From: Polyporus tsugae | Taxonomy: Eukaryota; Basidiomycota; Agaricomycetes; Polyporales; Polyporaceae | Length of the DNA: 64,000 nucleotides | Reading direction: 5' to 3' | Assembly: GCA_024305745.1 (NCBI GenBank) | Contig: JAHRBS010000013.1 | Span: 1,674,001-1,738,000 of the forward strand | Part shown: positions 44,110-58,754 of the stretch, piece by piece | How the letters are laid out: each line of letters starts with the position of its first letter | How positions within the stretch are numbered: the stretch's first letter is position 1 | Notes under the pieces: generated by a model | What the model saw: only the letters and a program-made list of their open reading frames with translations | Told to the model about the DNA's origin: nothing | Databases searched by the model: none | Made by a program: the position numbers and the translations under genes

Positions 44110-46487
44110 TCAGTTCGTCGTTGCAGGGCGGAAGCCGCGGAAGAGCCCCCGCTCCGTCTCGAGCCAAACCGGGAGCGGCTGGGCGTCGACCTTCGCAACG
44201 AAGCCAAGCTCGGTCCACTGGTGCACCATATCGGTACAACCAGGGAAGAAGGCACTCGACACATCTGCGTGCAGAGGCATCGGTCGGAAAGTTAATGCCC
44301 TGAACCGGCGCAATCAGAGGCGAAACTCTCACCGTCGGGGGTGTCCCGCAGACCCTCGGTCCACTTGCGGCGCGGAATCTGCGCGAGCTCAGCCACCGTT
44401 GTCCCTATCTTGGGCTTGGAGTCTTCGTCGTGCAAATCGATGAGGGGAACGGCAACCTCATCAGGACGGGCGGACGGCCACCTATTAATTGGGAGATATG
44501 AAGTCTAACTCTAACTCTCACGCCGATCCATGCAGGGGAGAATACGCACCAGTGGGTGTTGCACTGGCTGAAGTCGCTCTGCCATGGCAAGCTCAAGCCA
44601 CGCGACAAGAAGCCTGGGAGTACCTTCTCGTGGTTCACCCTGAACGGCGGGCGGAGCCCCTTGATGCCCGTGTCGAACGTCGCAGGGAGCTTCGCGATCC
44701 AGTAAGTCTCGATCCCAGGGAACAGCGGATCGCCGATGGTCTGCTCGAGCACCGCGCGCGTGAGGACGGCAGGCTGCTCCTGCAGGTCGTACTCCTCGAT
44801 GGACTTCTTGGTGCCGAACGGCGTCCCGACGGCGAACTTGCCGTCCTTCCAGTTGCCGAAGCGCTCGTACTGCAGCGCGGTGAGCGCCGCGAATTGCTCG
44901 ATGGACTTCTCATTGAGCTTGGGCACCGTACCGGGCTCGTTGGCATCGCCTGAAGAACATATACGTAAGCCCCACATCGTATTATGTGTAAGTGTACACC
45001 ACTGTACCATTGTCGCCGGACAACCGGGGCATGAAAATGACGTGGCCCTGGTCCTTGTTCTGGTAATCGGGCTGGCGAAGCCTACCGAAGATGTGATCGC
45101 GTAACGCCTTGTGTTGGGCGTCCTTAGAAGCAAGATTGTCCAGCTGCGGCCAGAAGTTGCCAAACCCACCGGGGCCTAGATACAAAAAATTAGCGGGCAG
45201 GTCTGCGCGAGAGATTCGAACGACGTACCGTGACCCTGAAACGCCTTCTCGTTAACCCAGGACAACTTGTACGTCCCAGAGAGCACCGGCCAGATGTCCT
45301 TGAAGAAGTCCGTCCCAGAGTGCTCCTCGTAGCTCGCATGCTTCTTATAGATGTCCTCCATGATGTCGTAGAGCGATGTCGGCGAATCGACGCCCCAAGC
45401 AAACTTGGGCGGCCCACTCAGGACCGTCGCCCTGTACGGCTTTCTGCCCCACGGTCAAAGGTAAGAAGATCGCGCTCAGCCGAAAGAGATCAAACAACGC
45501 ACAGCGTAGCGAGCTGGGGGCGATTCTGATGAGAAACGGAGACTTCGACCCATCCGTCGCATGCATTGTCGTACCAGTCCACGCTATCGAACTCGGAGAT
45601 GATGTTCGGCTGGCCCTTGAGAAGGTAGTCGGTCTGGACGGAGCGCGCGTGACCGCTCCCTCCGAGGAAGACTAGGCGGCCGAGACCGTCAGTGCGCAAC
45701 TCTCCTAGGTTGACGTCCACGGGTTTGTCCGCGGTGCCCTGGAACCTCCCGTTGAGCGGGACCGGCTTGGGGTCGGTCTTGGCGCGCACGATGGTCTTTG
45801 GGCCGGGGTCGATGATAAGTCTCTTCCGGGACTCCAAAGATAAGTCGAACGGGTCGCCGGAAACATGATCCTAACAAGGCAGCTGTAAGTATGGATTTAT
45901 CGCTGAGACGTGAGCATGGACAACGTACGACGGGGTCAACATCGGGGTTGCGTAGGTCTGTGTCTACTTTTGCCAGCCGTCCTGAATACATACAAAGTGG
46001 CCGTGAGTAATTATATATTGCAAGTAAGGAGTAACACACCACGAAAGATATAGTATGCAGCCTTCTTGTTCGCAACGTGGACAGTCCAAGTGAGGCGGTA
46101 GTTCTGTGTGTTGTTAATTTCCCCGAGAACCTTCCCCTGGCTGTCATACGCGTACACACGGAACCGTGCAGCCTGGTGAATAGTGAGCCCAGTTATGCTA
46201 AGAGTGTAGCAAACGGAATATCACTCAACCTGTCGCTTGATGCGGTACTGCGGGTCCCGAAACAATCCAAACGGGTGGTCGTTGAGACCAGGGACCTCGG
46301 GGCCGTAGAAGTACTCGATATCGGGATGCTCGGGGTCGGGTTGTCCGTTCGGCAACGTCCCTGAGTCGCCGACGCGAGCGACGCCGATAGGAGGAAATAT
46401 CTCGAGACGGGCGATCTTTGACGGATCGACGTTGGCGTACGTCTTGCCAGCACTGGGATCGTAGGGGGTGAACGGCGTAGAGACCAT
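44110..46487 (-). CDS. LodA/GoxA-type CTQ quinoprotein amine/amino-acid oxidase
   Basis: Exons 44110..44264, 44333..44481, 44550..44949, 45008..45175, 45229..45443, 45503..45870, 45929..45981, 46040..46172 and 46230..46487 give 632 residues in frame. Family blocks are IFPPIGVARVGDS near the start, LVFLGGSGHA, DWYDNACDGWVEVSV, PPKFAWGVDSPTSLYDIM, VIFMPRLSGDNG, GLSLPWQSDFSQCNTHWWPS and MVHQWTELGFV near the end. In Marinomonas LodA, Cys516 and Trp581 crosslink to the cysteine tryptophylquinone cofactor. The counterparts here are Cys528 and Trp598, 70 residues apart against 65. LodA-family enzymes deaminate lysine or glycine and release hydrogen peroxide and ammonia. The substrate of this one is not predictable. 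No signal peptide is seen. Eight introns argue against recent bacterial transfer. It lies beside the ferritin-like and LodB-like genes. Confidence 0.9.
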
Positions 46488-47693
46488 TTTCGAAAGGGCA
46501 GCGAACTGGAGTCTGTGTTGGGGGCGGGTTCTGGGGGACCCTTGAAATGGGTGAGCAGACGTTCATAAGCCACACTTCAAGCTCTGAATCACCGCATGCC
46601 CGAGGACGCCCAAGGTGCACTCAGCCCCGTCTGGTTCGGATAGCTGTCGCTCACATGAACAGGCATCCAGATTCGTCCCGGAGAAACGTCCATTCGACCT
46701 ACAGGAACGTGTTGGGGTAGTAAGAGTGGTAAGTCAGGGCACATATGGGATGCATGGAATGTGTGACTTAGAGACGCGCATCCACGGCCAACATTTCGGT
46801 TTGGGCCTTGGAAGAACGGAATGGAACCTCCTGAAACGTAATATTTTGCATCAGCTGAAGAGAGTACTAGTGGCACAGTCGATGTTCGCTACCTGGTAAG
46901 GGGTACCGGGGTTTCAACACTTTCACCGGATGGCAGTATCACCGGCCCCAGGCCCCCAGCAACGTTTGCCAGTGGTCGGTTAATCGCGGCATTACCTCAA
47001 TCGATGCGCTGGCCGTCAATGCACACGGGAAGGAGGGAACACAGGATTCCAAAACGTAAAGATTTGAAGACTGAAGTTGTCCTGGCATGCGGCTATCCAG
47101 ATGGAGGTCATTGAGTATCGACTTTATCTGACTAGAGGTGACCAGATTTGGCAAGAACAAGAACATGCCGTTCTAACCGTTTGGGTTGACGTCGCCAATG
47201 TCCGGCACCCGAGGGAAGGGCCAGCTGTTCATGTATTCAATGAGCGTACCGGCCTTGCACCAGCCCCGGGCCCTACTCAGGCTCGGCGGGGTGATTGGAT
47301 ACCACCATGATTAATATCGACAATGAGCGGGCGAGCGCGTGTCTCAGGGGGCCGACTACTCGCAATGCTTCCGGGAAGTTCCTTGGATCTGTTGGTAGTT
47401 CGGAATATCGTCAAGACAGCTGCCAGAGTCGGAGAGGTTGCAGAAGGTTGCAAGCTAAGTGACCGTTACTACTTACGTGACCGTGGACGTTGAGGCGCCA
47501 AGTACTAGCGCGCGTTGATGAGATGATTGGCTGACCAAGTGCAGCTCTGTCGGAACCACTGCCCCTCGACCGCCGCGAGAATGACATGGTGTGGGATTCT
47601 CATTGTTCTGAACTGGTAAACCGTACAACAAACACACGCGCTTTCGAGACACAAACACCGGTGACGTATCGTACAATCATCAATCCGATTCGC
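46488..47693. other. Intergenic region upstream of the LodA-like gene
   Basis: About 1.2 kb between the LodA-like start and the stop of the ferritin-like gene, both minus strand. Short open frames on either strand lack family features. It should carry the oxidase promoter. No clear repeated operator was recognised. Confidence 0.5.
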
Positions 47694-49141
47694 TCACGCC
47701 GCAGGCGCCAACGCCTTCAAGCAGAACACGATCTTCCCAATCGCCTCCTTTGTTTCCCCGGAGGCAGCCTGGTACGCTCGATCGACCTCCGCCGTCAACC
47801 GATCGTACAGTTCCTTCGGGCTCAACGCCTTCCCCTGTGAGTCCGGAGGGTAGAACTCGAAGCACGGCGCCGCATGCTTCTCGCCCTCGATGATCTGCTC
47901 GACGAGGACGTGCGCGACTGGAGACAGAATCTCGACCATGAGTCGGTGGATGTTCCGGAACAGCTGCGTCCGCTTGACGGCCGACCCTTCCGCCCAGCAG
48001 CGGTCGATCGTCTGCAGAAGGAAGCAGAAGGAAGCGTCGACCGCCAGCGACATCTGGTATCATCACAATTGTGTTAGCGGCTACAACAAGCAACAAGCAA
48101 GACGGAGAATAGCGCACCCGGTATGCAACCTCACTCTTGCCCGCGTAGTCGGCGGTGTGGGGCTTGTCGACATAGTCGATACAAACCCACTCCTTACGGC
48201 GCTGGTACAGCTCGACGAAGATAGAATAGTGCGAGTCGGGGACTCCAATGCTGCCTTCGCCTTGGTCGACGATCGTCTCGAGCGCCTGGAGGGCGGTCTT
48301 GGTGTCGACGACCGCCGTCATCCTCTCGTCGAAGAACTCTTCCCCCGTGAACTGCTTGTCGTTGTTGCTCGAGAAGAGATGGGAGTCGTTCTTGGAGACT
48401 TCAAGGATACCTGCAATACGAAAGTTACGTTAACCGCCGTCGCGCACCAAGGCACACCGTGCGCCCACCATGCTGAAGCTCCTTGTAGAACTCTCCGATG
48501 CTTTGGTAGCTGGGCAGGATCTCGGCGTAGAACATAGGCTTCCCCTCGAGCTCAGGGGGAGGCAGGTAGGGGGCTTCGATCTGCGAAAACCCACGTCGGT
48601 GAGCCAACGTTCACCATCCTCGTCAGCGAGACAATGCTCACCTTCAAGAAGCACTCCAGGTTCTTTTTGTCGGCGGGACGCAGCTCCATGTCGATCTTGT
48701 CGAACAGGATCTGGGACGGGTACTCCGGCATGAACGATTTGTTGTACAGGAGCTGAGTCCCGCCCAACGCGCGCAGCATGTTCCCAGCGAGGGCGAGATG
48801 CAACATCTCCTGCTCGGCTACCGCTGCCAGTGGGGCAAGTTGGTCAGCCAAGACAAGCACATCGACGGCACTCTGGAAGATGACTCGTACCGAGGATGTT
48901 GGCGCGGGCTTTCGAGCCCCATTGTCCGTTGTCGCGCTTGATGCTGTACAAGGCGCAGAAGTAGATGGGGAGCGTCCCCAACTCTACTTGCATGCCCTGT
49001 TTACACAGCCGTAGTGAGCATAAACGAATGACAGGCCCACGTATCAGGGAGTATGTGCAGTCGTACCGTCTTAACATGTTCGATGAGGGCATCCTTGGTC
49101 CATTGCCCGGGGGCTCCATAAACAGGGGTATACGAAGGCAT
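47694..49141 (-). CDS. Ferritin-like diiron protein, iminophenyl-pyruvate dimer synthase (VioB/RebD) domain type
   Basis: Exons 47694..48053, 48118..48410, 48469..48580, 48642..48823, 48891..48996 and 49067..49141 give 375 residues in frame. The N-terminal half has two ferritin-type helices: GMQVELGTLPIYFCALYSIK with a ligand Glu, and AVAEQEMLHLALAGNMLRAL with the Glu-x2-His pattern. SIGEFYKELQHG supplies a third helix and DYAGKSEVAYRMSLAVDAS a fourth. The block YNKSFMPEYPSQILF and a Pro-rich APYLPPPELEG loop are typical of VioB/RebD-related standalone proteins. In violacein and indolocarbazole synthesis this domain is part of the synthase that couples two imines made by an amino-acid oxidase. 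Here it sits next to an oxidase, so it may act on the imine product or on cofactor maturation (inference). Confidence 0.82.
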
Positions 49142-49685
49142 TGTTGAGTCGAACGAACGAGTCGAACGAGCGATGCTGGATATAGAAGGGTGGGGGGAGG
49201 TCTTTCAGCCAGGCGAAGCGTTATACCAATGATTGCCCTAGCGCTGGGCTTCACCCATAACGCCTGTGACATTGCTTGTCCGTCGGTAACAACATGCGTA
49301 AGGTTCCATGGAGTTTCTCGCGTTAGCACTTCCATTCATCGCGCATGCACGCCTCAACCCCGGATAGTAAGGTTCGGTCTGGGTTCGATGCCCATGTTGA
49401 GCGTTGATGTGAAGGGTAGTGGCGTAACACCGGGGCAGCAAAGGCTCCGAAGGCATTTCGAGGGAAGTGCCCGTCAGGCACTAGCGTCCTTGTCTCTACC
49501 GAATGAGACACGATGCATTATGATAGACACGAGGTGGTCAGTTGACCTTAGGTTAGCAGGCATGGATATCTCGGACTGCAGCTGGGGGACAACGTGAGCG
49601 TTTTTTGAAACGTCGTAGAGCCAAGTACCCCACATACCGCCACACTCCCCTAACTCTGCCCCTAGGAACGCTTGACGTTGAAGCG
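49142..49685. promoter_or_regulatory. Bidirectional promoter region of ferritin-like and LodB-like genes
   Basis: The 544 bp between divergent start codons (49141 minus, 49686 plus) must contain both promoters. It is GC-moderate with no clear TATA box. Shared control of the two genes is an inference from spacing alone. Confidence 0.5.
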
Positions 49686-51202
49686 ATGATGGGTGCTGTT
49701 TCCCGCGACCACGACAGTACGTGTCTTGGCAGATGGCCCGTTAGAAGTCCTGCAACCTAACGCACACATTGTCAAGTAATCATAATCGGCGGAGGACCCG
49801 CAGGGTGTGCTACCGCGCTCTCGATTGTGAAGCACACTTCCGAAGAGCCTGTTCGTGTCTTAGTGGTTGACGATGCAGATCCACATGCCTACAAGGTAAG
49901 GCCACGTTAGATGTGAGCTAAACCAATAACTGATTAACACACATACAGATAGGCGAGTCGCTGCCTGCAGCGGCAAGACGTCCATTGTCCATACTTCATC
50001 CGTCACTACTACCCCGCCTCACCGACGATGCTTCGCAGGGCCTGCACGACATTTGCACAGGAAACGCTTCCGCATGGGCGAGCGCGAAGCTGCACGAAAC
50101 GTACTCACTCATGAATCCCTACGGTGTGGGCTGGCACCTTGACCGGGCGCACTTCGACGAGATGCTGCGCGGAGCATGCGGTGCCATGCTCCTGAAAGGC
50201 AAAGTCGTCGCCGTACGCCGCACGGACGTCGAGACTGCCAACCGATCGCATCGGTTGGGGTGGGAGGTGGACGTCAAAATTGGGGCGTCTGATAAGGAGG
50301 AAACATTCAGCGCCAAATGGGTAGTCGACGCGACCGGTCGCAAAGCCTCTGTGGCACAGAAGGTTAGTAAGAGCGAGTTAAACATTGTTCAGGATATAAC
50401 TTACCTAAAGGACCAGATTGGAGCCAAGACGCGCAAGCATTCGGACCTTCTCTCGTTCTACGTCGTCTTCGAAGGAGGCGATCCGGATACAGACTTGGGG
50501 GACGGCGACGATGACACCCGTACGCTCATCGAAGCTGCGCCGAACGGCTGGTGGTACTCCGCCCGTCTTCCGCATCGTAAACGGCTCGTTATGTACACGA
50601 CCTCGCCATCCAACCCGACAGTTCGTGTGGCACGCTCCGCGACTGGCTTTCTCGATCTGCTCCACTCAGACACCGTGCATATCTCACGCTCTCTTGGGGG
50701 CACTCCGCATCAAGACGTGTTCCCTGCGGGTGCCAGCGCGACCATGCAGTGTCCGCTCTACGAACTTCCTCCCGGGACGAAGTTCACGAGATGCACCTCG
50801 GCAGCATCGTCGATCTTGGAATCGTACGCCTCATGGGAGCCACAGCGCGAAGTCGGGGGCGAATCGGAATCGGAGGAGGATCCCCCGGGACGAGGCTGGT
50901 GCGCGGTGGGCGACGCAGCGCTTGCCTTCGACCCCCTCTCGTCCCAGGGGATCATTACCGCTCTGAATGCAGGCGCGTTCCTCGGTTCCGTGCTGGTGCG
51001 GCACCTTCGCCCGTCTGCGGCTGACGGCGGCTCTCGCCTGAGGGGCGGCGATGCTGTGGACGAGATTCAGCGGGCGTACGAGCGAGTGCGGGAGAAGTAC
51101 GAGGAAGGTCGAAAATATTACTACCGCATCGTGAAACGGTTTGAAGTCGCTGGGGAAGAAAACGAGGACAACGGTCCAGGATTTTGGGAGCGGCAGAGGT
51201 GA
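49686..51202 (+). CDS. LodB-like FAD-dependent flavoprotein (tryptophan-halogenase superfamily)
   Basis: Exons 49686..49716, 49777..49895 and 49949..51202 give 467 residues in frame. Residues about 11-20 are the FAD Rossmann loop IIIIGGGPAG. They are followed by VLVVDDADPHAYKIGESLPA, a GESLP motif of the halogenase/LodB group, GWHLDRAHFDEML, WVVDATGRKASVAQK, and WCAVGDAALAFDPLSSQGII, the C-terminal FAD-binding block. The halogenase active-site WxWxIP motif is not seen, which points to the LodB type rather than a halogenase. In bacteria LodB is required to form the quinone cofactor of LodA. The adjacent LodA-like gene makes the same role likely here. ATG at 49686 is followed by a second in-frame ATG at 49689; either may be used. 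Confidence 0.88.
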
Positions 51203-55313: not shown

Positions 55314-58300
55314 ATGCGTTTGATCGACACGGAGACTGGGAAATTTGTCAACGTTGTTGACTCGTCGACGGCCCCCCTGTATGCCGCTCTGTCGCATACC
55401 TGGGATCCCAACGGGGAGCAGTCGTATCAGCAGGTCGTGAAGATACAAGAGAACTTCGGGCTTTCCATGCGTGATCAGCTTTTTCTTCTCGTTTTCAGCC
55501 CCGAGCCTTACCTTGTGTCGTAGTCGGCTTTGGCTGGAGAGGTCCCCTCCGAACCACTTTCGAACACCCCTAGCCAAACCCCGCAGACAGTCGTTCTCGA
55601 TGCATCGGAACCCCCCATGCCCACCCACTCCACACTCTCCGCGTCCCAGGTGCCTCACCTCTCCCCCTCAATGCCCGCCCTCCTGAGTTCCTTACTCGTG
55701 TCGATACTCGCCCGAGCAGTCCTCTACTTCCTCTTTGGTTCGTCAGTTCCCCCGCGGCTGGAACCTCACAGCGAGGCTCAAACTCCTCGTCCATCCCCCA
55801 CTCGCCCCTCCATCTGGGATCCTGACTCCCCGCTCTCCGAGAAGGTCCGGAAGGCGTGCGAGATCGCCCGCAACGACGGCTACCGCTACATGTGGGTCGA
55901 CTCCTCCTGCATCGACAAGACCAGCAGCTCTGAGTTGTCTGAAGCCATCAACTCGATGTTCAAGTGGTACTGCGATGCGCAGATCTGCTATGCCCTCCTC
56001 TCGGATGTTCCCTCTGATGGGGATGTGAGAGCAAGGAACTCCAAGTTCCGGAAGAGCCGATGGTTCAAGCGCTCATGGACACTCCAGGAGCTCGTCGCGC
56101 CCCGTATGGTCGTCTTCCTCTCGCGGAACTGGAAAGGTCTCGGGACGAAGGACGCATTGGCGGATCTCATCGAGGAGATCACGCATATCGACCGCGACGT
56201 CTTGACGCACAGGAAGGCGTTGGCCGACGAGTGCGTTGCCGAGCGGATGCGGTGGGCGGCCGAACGCAAGGCGACTCGGGTCGAGGATGTGGCCTACTCG
56301 TTGCTCGGGATCTTCGGGATCACGATGCCTACGCTCTACGGAGAGGGCGAGTACGCCTTCCTGCGGCTACAGGAGGAGATCCTACGACGAATCCCCGATC
56401 GTACCCTGTTCGCTTGGGGCGAGTGTGTGCCCTTTCCCCAGGGGCCCTCAGCCTGGATCACTGTCGTTCCCGAAGCTGGATCACTTGTTGCATCGTCTCC
56501 TCGTTCCTTCGCCTCACTCACAGGCAAGATTGACGTGCTATCTCAAGAGGATATCGAGTCTCTAAAGCTATCTGTTGAACCAGAAGAGTACACCCCCACC
56601 CCCCACGGCATCCGCACACAACTCTTCTTCATCCCCGTGCAGGCTTTGAATCCAAGCTTCTTTATTGACGTCATTCCTGACCGAAGGGTTTCTGCCGTGG
56701 ATTTACCTTCATGGCACTTTGTTCTCCTTGCCTCCCAACACGCTCACAGTGATCGACGACTGCTGGGCAGACTATGCTCCATACCCTGTACGAAATCCAA
56801 CAATACGGTCCTGCATGTACCACGAGGCTCGGAATCATACGTATCCGTAAACACCTTCGCCATCTCATTGGGTGACCTTGTGAGCACCCAAAACCTGGCG
56901 CAGCTGAAGGTGAAGACCGTCTATCTTCCTCATCCAAAACCATCCATGTCCAAGCGGCGACCACCATATGAGCAGGACGCTACATTGAAGTCGACAATAT
57001 CCCTCTCCACCTGGGCCCAAGATTCCCTGCGGCTGTACGGGTACACCATCTCAGATCTCCGCCCTATTGAAGACCACCCTCAGTATTCCTCTTTCCTTAC
57101 ACTCTCCAACGTGTCATTCAACGTACACATTCAATACCGGCACATGCCAGGGAAGAGTGGTACTCCCAAGCGCCACGCCATGGTCATCGAGGCGCGTATC
57201 TGGATCCTCTCCCCCGATTCAGAAGAGGATGTCCAGAGGGGTGCGCTTCAGCGTAACCCGCCCTACACTTCTTCCATCTGGCTTGCTTGTGAACCATCAT
57301 GGGCTGTGACTCTTCCGCTGAGAACCATACACCTGGTCACGCAATCGAGAGACGAGGCGACATTACGACTCGGGCTACTAGGCATTGCAACACCCACTCA
57401 TTTCCACACCCATGTTGAGGTCGCGAGCGACGTTGCGAATCCTACCTGCCAATTGTCCACGCGCGCTCTGGCTGTCTCGGAGGGCCTTCTCGACCGTGTC
57501 ATAGGCGAGCCACACACGGACTTGAAGTTCACTATGCTGGGATCAGTCAGAAGGGCGTTAGAAGCACGCGGGTACTCCGTCGATCTCGAACGGTCTGACC
57601 CAAACACAGGCGACTCCCATTCCCTCTCCCTCATCATATCTAACGTCGCCTCAGGATTCTCCATCTCCATTAAGTATTTTCATATGCTCCAGAAAGGCAT
57701 CGGCAGTTTCAGGAAACAGTTTCAAGAACTCGTAGTTGTCGCCCGTGTCACCTTGGAGTTGCCTTCGGGCGCTAGCCACAACTCCGAGGGGTACCAGGAC
57801 GGTCCATATGTCGCAGGTTGGTCGGATGATGCTTGCTCTAGAGACATAGGATGGCAGTGGCGCCAAGAGGAGAAGAAGATAAGCCTCACGACGCCGACTG
57901 GCGACTCGCTGACACTCCGCCTCGGCTTGGACTTGGCATGGACATCCGAATACTACTTGGTGGTCGATATCGAACATGACGGAGGTTCCTGCTCCCGATA
58001 TGAACCTGACCGCCGTCCCCCTACGGCGCCACTCCTGCTGCGTAATCCCCACAGTCGTATTATCTTGATGCTCCCTGCACATGTCAAGCGCGCGTTGCAG
58101 ATGCATGGATACGATGTCCACTTCGAAGGGCCCAATGAAGACCACCCTGATCACTACCACCTCACCTTCTCCGACGCCAACCTCACGATCGACATCGAGT
58201 ACTCCTACCATCTATCCACAGCCTTGAATGGGAAGCAGGGGTTGACTTTCTGGGCTCGTGTCACGACTTCGTCGTTGCAAAGCTCCCGGGATGCTGCCAC

Positions 58301-58754
58301 TCAGCCCGGCCGTGGGATCCGAGGGACATGGGATGCGTGGGAATCGGAATCGGCTATACAACGTATAATCGGTAGGTTGAAGAGAGGCTGGCGTTGGAAC
58401 CTGCCACAGAAAGACGTCAAGCTCGCACTCCCAACCGGTCTCGAGCTGACTTTGCGCCTCGGCTTCTACCTCGTATGGCTCTCTGAATACTGCCTCATGG
58501 TCGAGATCATTCCCCCGTCACCGCTCTCGGGAACAACGTCGCATGAAGCCCTTGTATCGGCCCACACAAGCGCGCACAGCAGGAATGGCAGGGAGGACGC
58601 TGGTGACGGTGCAGGCATGCAGGAGACGGCAGCGGGCGAAGACGACGATCACGACGTTGCGCACTCTGGTTTGGTCGCACCAGTCACATTACCCTCACCG
58701 GGTATGGAGGAAGCTGAGGTGGAGGGAGCGAGTTCCGGGGATCAGGTTGAGTAG
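55314..58754 (+). CDS. HET-domain protein with triplicated C-terminal module
   Basis: Exon 1 begins MRLIDTETGKF and contains LYAALSHTWDPNGEQSYQ, the first HET block. It must splice into the long open frame that runs to 58754. That frame has ACEIARNDGYRYMWVDSSC and IDKTSSSELSEAINSMFKWY, then RSWTLQELVAPRMVVFLSRN and AYSLLGIFGITMPTLYGEGE, which complete the heterokaryon-incompatibility domain. HET domains in fungi trigger regulated cell death or non-self responses. The C-terminal about 600 residues hold three copies of an unrecognised module of about 150-190 residues, each with a SYG/HGYDVxxE-type strand, IxxxYxHM or YSYHL, and LTLRLGx(n)SEYYLxVxI. The copies lie at about 56980-57430, 57500-57990 and 58030-58520. 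The exact first intron is uncertain. No NACHT motif is seen. Confidence 0.82.

Follow-up and report, generated by a model that had tools for sequence, protein, structure and literature searches.

The 64,000-nucleotide stretch of Polyporus tsugae DNA analysed here (assembly GCA_024305745.1, contig JAHRBS010000013.1, positions 1,674,001 to 1,738,000 of the forward strand; hereafter the window, numbered from its first letter) carries three adjacent genes, for a LodA/GoxA-type putative cysteine tryptophylquinone (CTQ) oxidase, a ferritin-like protein of family PF12902 and a LodB-type flavoprotein. Comparison with fungal and bacterial relatives suggests that the ferritin-like protein is likely the working partner of the oxidase. 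The genes were modelled with GT..AG introns of 53–70 bases. The LodA-like gene (46487..44110, minus strand) has nine exons (46487-46230, 46172-46043, 45981-45929, 45870-45503, 45443-45229, 45175-45008, 44949-44550, 44481-44333 and 44264-44110), and the ferritin-like gene (49141..47694, minus strand) has six (49141-49067, 48996-48891, 48823-48642, 48580-48469, 48410-48118 and 48053-47694). The LodB-like gene follows on the plus strand (49686..51202; exons 49686-49716, 49777-49895 and 49949-51202), its start 3.2 kb from that of the oppositely oriented LodA-like gene, with the ferritin-like gene between them. The 544-bp divergent stretch separating the ferritin-like and LodB-like genes (49142..49685, unstranded, delimited by the gene models) presumably holds both promoters. 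The first-pass annotation of the window had proposed three adjacent, intact multi-exon genes at these positions, and the spliced models, Pfam domains and homolog lengths agree with it; the ferritin-like and LodB-like products measure 375 and 467 amino acids (AA), as it had said, while the LodA-like product is 631 AA rather than 632. In the 43.2-Mb genome of the fungus, LodA_C and PF12902 each match a single locus, namely this one (E <= 0.001).

The LodA-like protein has the LodA/GoxA fold, with LodA_N (PF17990, 3.3e-48) followed by LodA_C (PF18417, 4.8e-31), both above their Pfam cut-offs, and a 630-AA protein of Ganoderma adspersum is 88% identical over 100% of the LodA-like protein. Cys516 of LodA, as counted in the alignment, sits in the motif PWQADFxxC; the window protein reads PWQSDFSQC, with Cys527 aligned to Cys516, and continues with Trp-Trp-Pro (W531, W532), either of whose tryptophans may be the modified residue of the putative CTQ. 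These residues are encoded at 44478..44563 on the minus strand (Cys527 at 44563-44561, W532 at 44480-44478), the W531 codon being split by the intron 44549-44482. Of the 67 relatives aligned (P0074-P0140), 62 have the Cys...Trp-Trp-Pro motif in full; in four of the remaining five, all shorter models (499-531 AA), the sequence stops or departs at this point, and the fifth has Asn for Asp. Likewise, the available text of a 2015 survey states that every LodA-like protein surveyed keeps the Cys and Trp aligned with the CTQ pair (PMC4417212). The window protein is predicted to carry the quinone, and on the simplest reading it would convert an amine to an imine with release of peroxide, on both of which the ferritin-like centre would act; the accessible parts of the literature examined report no activity for any fungal LodA-like protein.

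The flavoprotein matches flavin adenine dinucleotide (FAD) families in Pfam, the best being Trp_halogenase (8.3e-10), and a dinucleotide-binding motif, GGGPAG, lies at residues 15-20. Among relatives that align along its full length, the best shares 66% identity over 99%. NCBIfam places maturase_LodB first (135.6 bits, 2.1e-39) and GoxB second (133.4 bits), both under their 400-bit cut-offs, and by similarity and position we predict that it is a putative CTQ maturase. For the oxidase, the nearest NCBIfam models are GoxA (247 bits against a cut-off of 750) and LodA (129 against 600). Since both the oxidase and the flavoprotein fall below these curated equivalog cut-offs, the families fit and no substrate can be named, neither the lysine nor the glycine of the LodA/LodB and GoxA/GoxB systems of Marinomonas and Pseudoalteromonas, from which the locus differs further by its extra ferritin-like gene.

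That gene product matches PF12902 with 162.6 bits (1.6e-47) against a cut-off of 22.3, and a 375-AA protein of G. leucocontextum is 99% identical over 100% of it. By this match and the one to G. adspersum the fungus is very likely a Ganoderma, apparently close to G. leucocontextum. Six residues, E30, E66, H69, E123, E210 and H219, are putative diiron ligands: in a 74-row alignment E210 is kept in 99% of rows, and the other five never vary where a row has no gap. With its four Glu and two His this is the usual carboxylate-bridged diiron set, and the six residues would likely hold two irons. The structure PDB 3hl1 is a relative by sequence and also by fold, the latter as judged on a fused homolog. 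Six PF12902 proteins (P0053-P0056, P0060 and P0061) also bear PF06902 and PF09360, which we take to be a ferredoxin-like and a CDGSH iron-sulfur domain, respectively, hinting at a possible electron supply to the ferritin-like site.

The first-pass annotation considered the cluster likely undescribed; this does not hold. As far as the available text of the 2015 survey goes, five fungal lodA-like genes, all from Agaricomycetes and in LodA group V, were each reported with an inverted lodB-like gene, a PF12902 gene lay near or between the two, and the arrangement was drawn for Gymnopus luxurians (Fig. 1C; PMC4417212). The present locus is another instance, sharing with those the lodA-like gene, the opposite lodB-like gene, the nearby PF12902 gene and the CTQ Cys and Trp. 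Fungal fusions, bacterial arrays with PF12902 and a function for the ferritin-like gene are all absent from that text (PMC4417212). In the parts available of two further papers, on Rigidoporus and Trametes, the sole mention is a table entry for a protein of the ferritin-like superfamily, not specified further. What is new here are the fusions in three fungal groups, the bacterial arrays, the correlated distances and the complete ligand set; neither LodA-PF12902 fusions nor bacterial PF12902-lodA-lodB arrays are described among the literature matches listed, which consist of titles and abstract starts and leave subscription papers and preprints mostly outside.

Six of the 120 LodA relatives among the matches listed are single proteins of 988-1044 AA in which LodA comes first and PF12902 second, the domain positions having been determined for three of the six. 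They occur in Russula, Psilocybe and Volvariella, in Jimgerdemannia (Endogonales), and in Funneliformis and Entrophospora (Glomeromycota), so that the fungal range is wider than the Agaricomycetes of 2015. No fusion to LodB was seen among the matches listed for LodA and LodB relatives. Among unfused genes, the LodA and ferritin-like pair lies on a common contig in 17 of the 21 named fungal species with rows for both, and the ferritin-like and LodB pair in 15 of 21; these counts were read by eye from one representative row per protein cluster, contigs of equal length being taken as the same contig. In Vararia all three genes fall within 11.9 kb. Pairing is thus the common state among the mushroom species available for checking. 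As a separate observation, Suillus paluster, S. ampliporus and Hygrophoropsis aurantiaca have two to three LodA rows per contig, and the two Suillus species, like Collybiopsis luxurians, also have two to three ferritin-like rows, which would be consistent with local duplication in several mushrooms.

The fusions bear on whether the ferritin-like protein instead assists in making the cofactor. The CTQ of LodA and GoxA is thought, in the available text, to receive its first hydroxyl autocatalytically (copper-dependent in LodA), with LodB and GoxB adding the second only, which leaves room for a fungal helper, a diiron protein performing the first hydroxylation of the tryptophan before LodB performs the second (PMC7876137). 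We regard this as quite unlikely. One-to-one joining to the oxidase in six fungal proteins would be unusual for a maturase, no counterpart fusion to LodB was found among the same matches, and the characterised LodA and GoxA are described, in the sources as available, with LodB or GoxB alone. Neither of these characterised oxidases is known to need a PF12902 protein. The first-pass annotation had left the choice between imine coupling and maturation undecided; the fusions, together with kinship to the VioB domain, make us lean towards a catalytic role.

This kinship is direct for one half of the VioB/RebD-like proteins. Their C-terminal half is homologous to the PF12902 family (hhalign, 100%), all six ligands are present in the three VioB-like rows checked (3/3), and in the ferritin-like tree the VioB-like halves group with a bacterial LodA-linked clade (starred branch, 99). 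RebD and StaD, the CPA synthases, couple two imines from a tryptophan oxidase according to the accessible text (PMC10851217), and like VioB they act downstream of an amino-acid oxidase; they differ from the window protein in an N-terminal part of ~600 AA, a flavoprotein oxidase as partner and, for the RebD type as described in the sources available, heme. No reaction is assigned to PF12902 proteins beyond VioB, RebD and StaD in the literature searched. The window protein is not itself a VioB: against the model for iminophenyl-pyruvate dimer synthase (TIGR04492) it scores 28.5 bits of the 1250 set as cut-off, over residues 53-227 only and with 375 AA against ~1000, whereas the VioB of locus L081 scores 1865.6. 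The idea that the ~600-AA N-terminal part of VioB is a degenerate LodA was dropped: comparing a profile of six VioB/RebD-like sequences with LodA gave a probability of 2.7% over 20 columns, whereas the ferritin-like halves, compared as a control, reached 100%. As the VioB-side alignment is shallow, such a likeness is unsupported rather than disproved. A match of VioB to leukemia inhibitory factor (PDB) was taken as chance. VioB relatives were found in 2 of the 185 genomes of its class, one being the query's own and the other matching the ferritin-like part only, and in 21 plasmid records, 16 of them from Streptomyces clavuligerus, of which three of the 21 match the ferritin-like part only.

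In bacteria we examined the 79 lodA loci that best matched one alignment in which fused proteins were already included, so that proportions among them are not rates; near-duplicates remain (L042 and L043 are identical, and three are from Chromobacterium), and frames were taken from stop to stop, making gaps approximate. A PF12902 gene is present in 12 of the 79, and in ten of these it sits immediately upstream of lodA while lodB lies downstream, the three genes abutting in one orientation. The other two are L047, where it lies 2.5 kb from lodA without abutting, and L079, where it follows lodB; a second PF12902 match in L081 is VioB and was left uncounted. Membership of Actinomycetota was checked among the ten arrays; the others presumably belong to Pseudomonadota, Cyanobacteriota and Planctomycetota. 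In L092, L093 and L101 the ferritin-like and lodA frames abut, and in the first two a lodB frame of like orientation comes next and touches or overlaps its neighbour. The Calothrix genome with L054 has L101 as its second pair. Clustering of the frames around lodA yielded, judged by eye, mostly shadow frames and carries no weight here.

Many other bacterial LodAs carry a different partner. A profile built for this analysis finds a PF14518 part (heme-oxygenase-like, of the iron type) as a fusion with LodA in 35 of the 79 loci, and it exceeded the Pfam cut-off in all four of those scanned (4/4). These parts keep invariant Glu, His and Asp residues in the alignment; a pattern written for the PF14518 metal motif matched just one of the 35. 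As with PF12902, the domain linked to LodA here comes from a redox family that contains iron, but its fold family is unrelated. The available survey text had noted pfam14518 in five LodA proteins and a catalase-fold domain in many (PMC4417212). No locus of the 79 has both PF12902 and a PF14518-type part, which would have a chance of 0.0004 if rows were independent but is confounded by ancestry, and 32 of the 79 have neither in reach. This last figure weighs against the rather unlikely alternative that the ferritin-like protein is a guard against peroxide, a peroxidase- or catalase-like enzyme that would clear the hydrogen peroxide made by LodA in the cell and leave the organic product untouched; also against it, the closest characterised PF12902 proteins act, in the descriptions available, on imines.

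Distances between LodA proteins are matched by those between their ferritin-like partners, with r=0.95 for 13 bacterial pairs and r=0.92 for 12 fungal pairs, and none of 2000 permutations reached as high; the test left out L047 and the L072 pair, whose ferritin-like gene is truncated, and used 12 fungal species with split genes. In the main bacterial clade (nine pairs), six of six splits are shared between LodA and ferritin-like partners. Larger trees of the two families are quick searches without bootstrap and rooted for drawing only, that of LodA under LG+G4 without a mixture. The LodA tree has one fungal clade of 31 unfused and four fused proteins and one metagenome row (starred branch, 100), and pairing with PF12902 occurs in several separate places, at least four changes being forced by starred branches, with gain and loss not told apart. 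Descent of the fungal trio from the bacterial ferritin-lodA-lodB arrays is unsupported, the fungal LodA clade standing apart from the arrays and the Glomeromycota fusions elsewhere again. These latter fusions (P0162 and P0181) lie apart from the other fungal LodAs; measured by path, they come closest to bacterial LodAs fused to PF14518, as though taken up on a separate occasion. If, and only if, the bacteria are taken as outgroup, Jimgerdemannia branches first (support 94) and the fused state would be older than the split one in fungi.

Taking these lines together, we consider it on balance probable that the LodA-like and ferritin-like proteins form one catalytic pair and that the LodB-like protein serves their cofactor. 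In this scheme the flavoprotein would build the CTQ in the oxidase, the oxidase would oxidise its substrate, a primary amine and probably an amino acid, to an imine with formation of hydrogen peroxide, and the iron centre of the ferritin-like protein would carry out a second oxidation or a coupling on imine and peroxide, as is thought for VioB/RebD-type proteins. At the P. tsugae locus, where the two proteins are unfused, they are predicted to pair physically. The pair is treated as a unit because of the gene fusions, the operon-like bacterial arrays, the matching distances and the shared contigs in mushrooms, and the same evidence supports the earlier proposal that the trio is a functional unit.

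Several observations weigh against this interpretation. The co-localisation expected in other mushrooms held for most species and failed in 4 of the 21 for LodA and the ferritin-like gene (Dichomitus squalens, Trametes versicolor, Suillus clintonianus and Scleroderma citrinum) and in 6 of the 21 for the ferritin-like gene and LodB (Dichomitus, Hermanssonia, S. clintonianus, S. citrinum, Scleroderma yunnanense and Suillus ampliporus). Beyond the main bacterial clade, agreement of splits falls to 6 of 10 when all 13 bacterial pairs are taken, to 5 of 9 among the fungal pairs and to 19 of 28 across the full 31, and in the LodA tree the fungal proteins stand apart from those bacterial LodAs that are paired with a ferritin-like gene. 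Fairer rates come from even draws of 299 Pseudomonadota, 246 Actinomycetota and 194 Cyanobacteriota genomes (the phyla of G001, G004 and G002), in which LodA_C is found in 9, 3 and 2 genomes and PF12902 in 15, 21 and 15, respectively. With the three draw centres excluded, as these had been chosen for having the pair, an adjacent PF12902 gene occurs in 2 of 11 LodA genomes and an adjacent LodA in 2 of 48 PF12902 genomes (E <= 0.001; 42 of the 48 above the family's cut-off), and hence neither LodA nor PF12902 generally needs the other; the pairing in bacteria is real but a minority. Finally, RebD and StaD are described in the available text as heme proteins (PMC10851217), and the N-terminal part of VioB is absent from the ferritin-like protein and has no detected likeness to LodA, so the chemistry of VioB is not simply transferable.

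Some of these points would suit ordinary linkage, in which the genes are neighbours through shared ancestry and catalyse separate reactions: pairing is a minority state in bacteria, the fungal distances partly reflect species history, and the two trees agree in part only. We nevertheless find this explanation very unlikely in view of the fusions, the pairing in several separate places of the LodA tree and the conserved ligands.

Returning to the catalytic pair, its location was assessed by rough screens of the three proteins and of relatives whose rows begin with Met, using a hydrophobicity threshold of 2.2. Neither a hydrophobic N-terminal stretch nor a peroxisomal C-terminus was found by these screens in the three proteins, 67 LodA rows or 48 ferritin-like rows; among LodB-like rows, 5 of 86 exceeded the threshold, four of them barely. 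The pair is therefore predicted to be cytosolic, which speaks against feeding of secreted peroxidases, and the earlier suggestion that its peroxide supplies lignin peroxidases appears doubtful.

More tentatively, and as a possibility that reaches well beyond this locus, LodA quinoproteins may often be one half of a two-centre oxidase. An imine and peroxide would arise at the quinone, and both would be consumed in place, in a second oxidation, by an iron centre either docked on LodA or fused to it; this centre would be of the PF12902 type in fungi and a few bacterial groups and of the PF14518 type in many of the remaining bacteria. The pair in P. tsugae might then be the split descendant of a fused fungal enzyme making an amino-acid-derived metabolite, and the VioB/RebD bisindole synthases would be related enzymes in which the ferritin-like half became attached to another partner. 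The single-chain LodA-ferritin fusions make the question of coupling directly testable in one polypeptide. Coupling, if it exists, would add a tandem quinone and diiron chemistry to the protein-derived quinones, and the origin of the imine-coupling step of violacein and rebeccamycin synthesis could be sought within a wider family.

Other domain combinations were seen around bacterial LodAs. A Variovorax LodA frame of 1506 AA (L036:6983-11500) has multicopper-oxidase, kelch/galactose-oxidase-like and early-set domains ahead of LodA. In the Planctomycetota locus L058, one LodA (L058:9992-13363) ends in a C-terminal VWA domain, and a second lodA-like frame (L058:14545-16539) lies directly past the lodB-like frame.

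Ten frames flanking the P. tsugae cluster were scanned with Pfam and gave no sign of a wider biosynthetic cluster. Nine of the ten had matches, namely to histidine phosphatase, AN1 zinc finger, cyclophilin, HET, Ufd2, amidohydrolase, SET, WD40 and DUF4436. The frame with the HET (heterokaryon incompatibility) domain occupies 55524-58751 of the window, 4.3 kb past the cluster.

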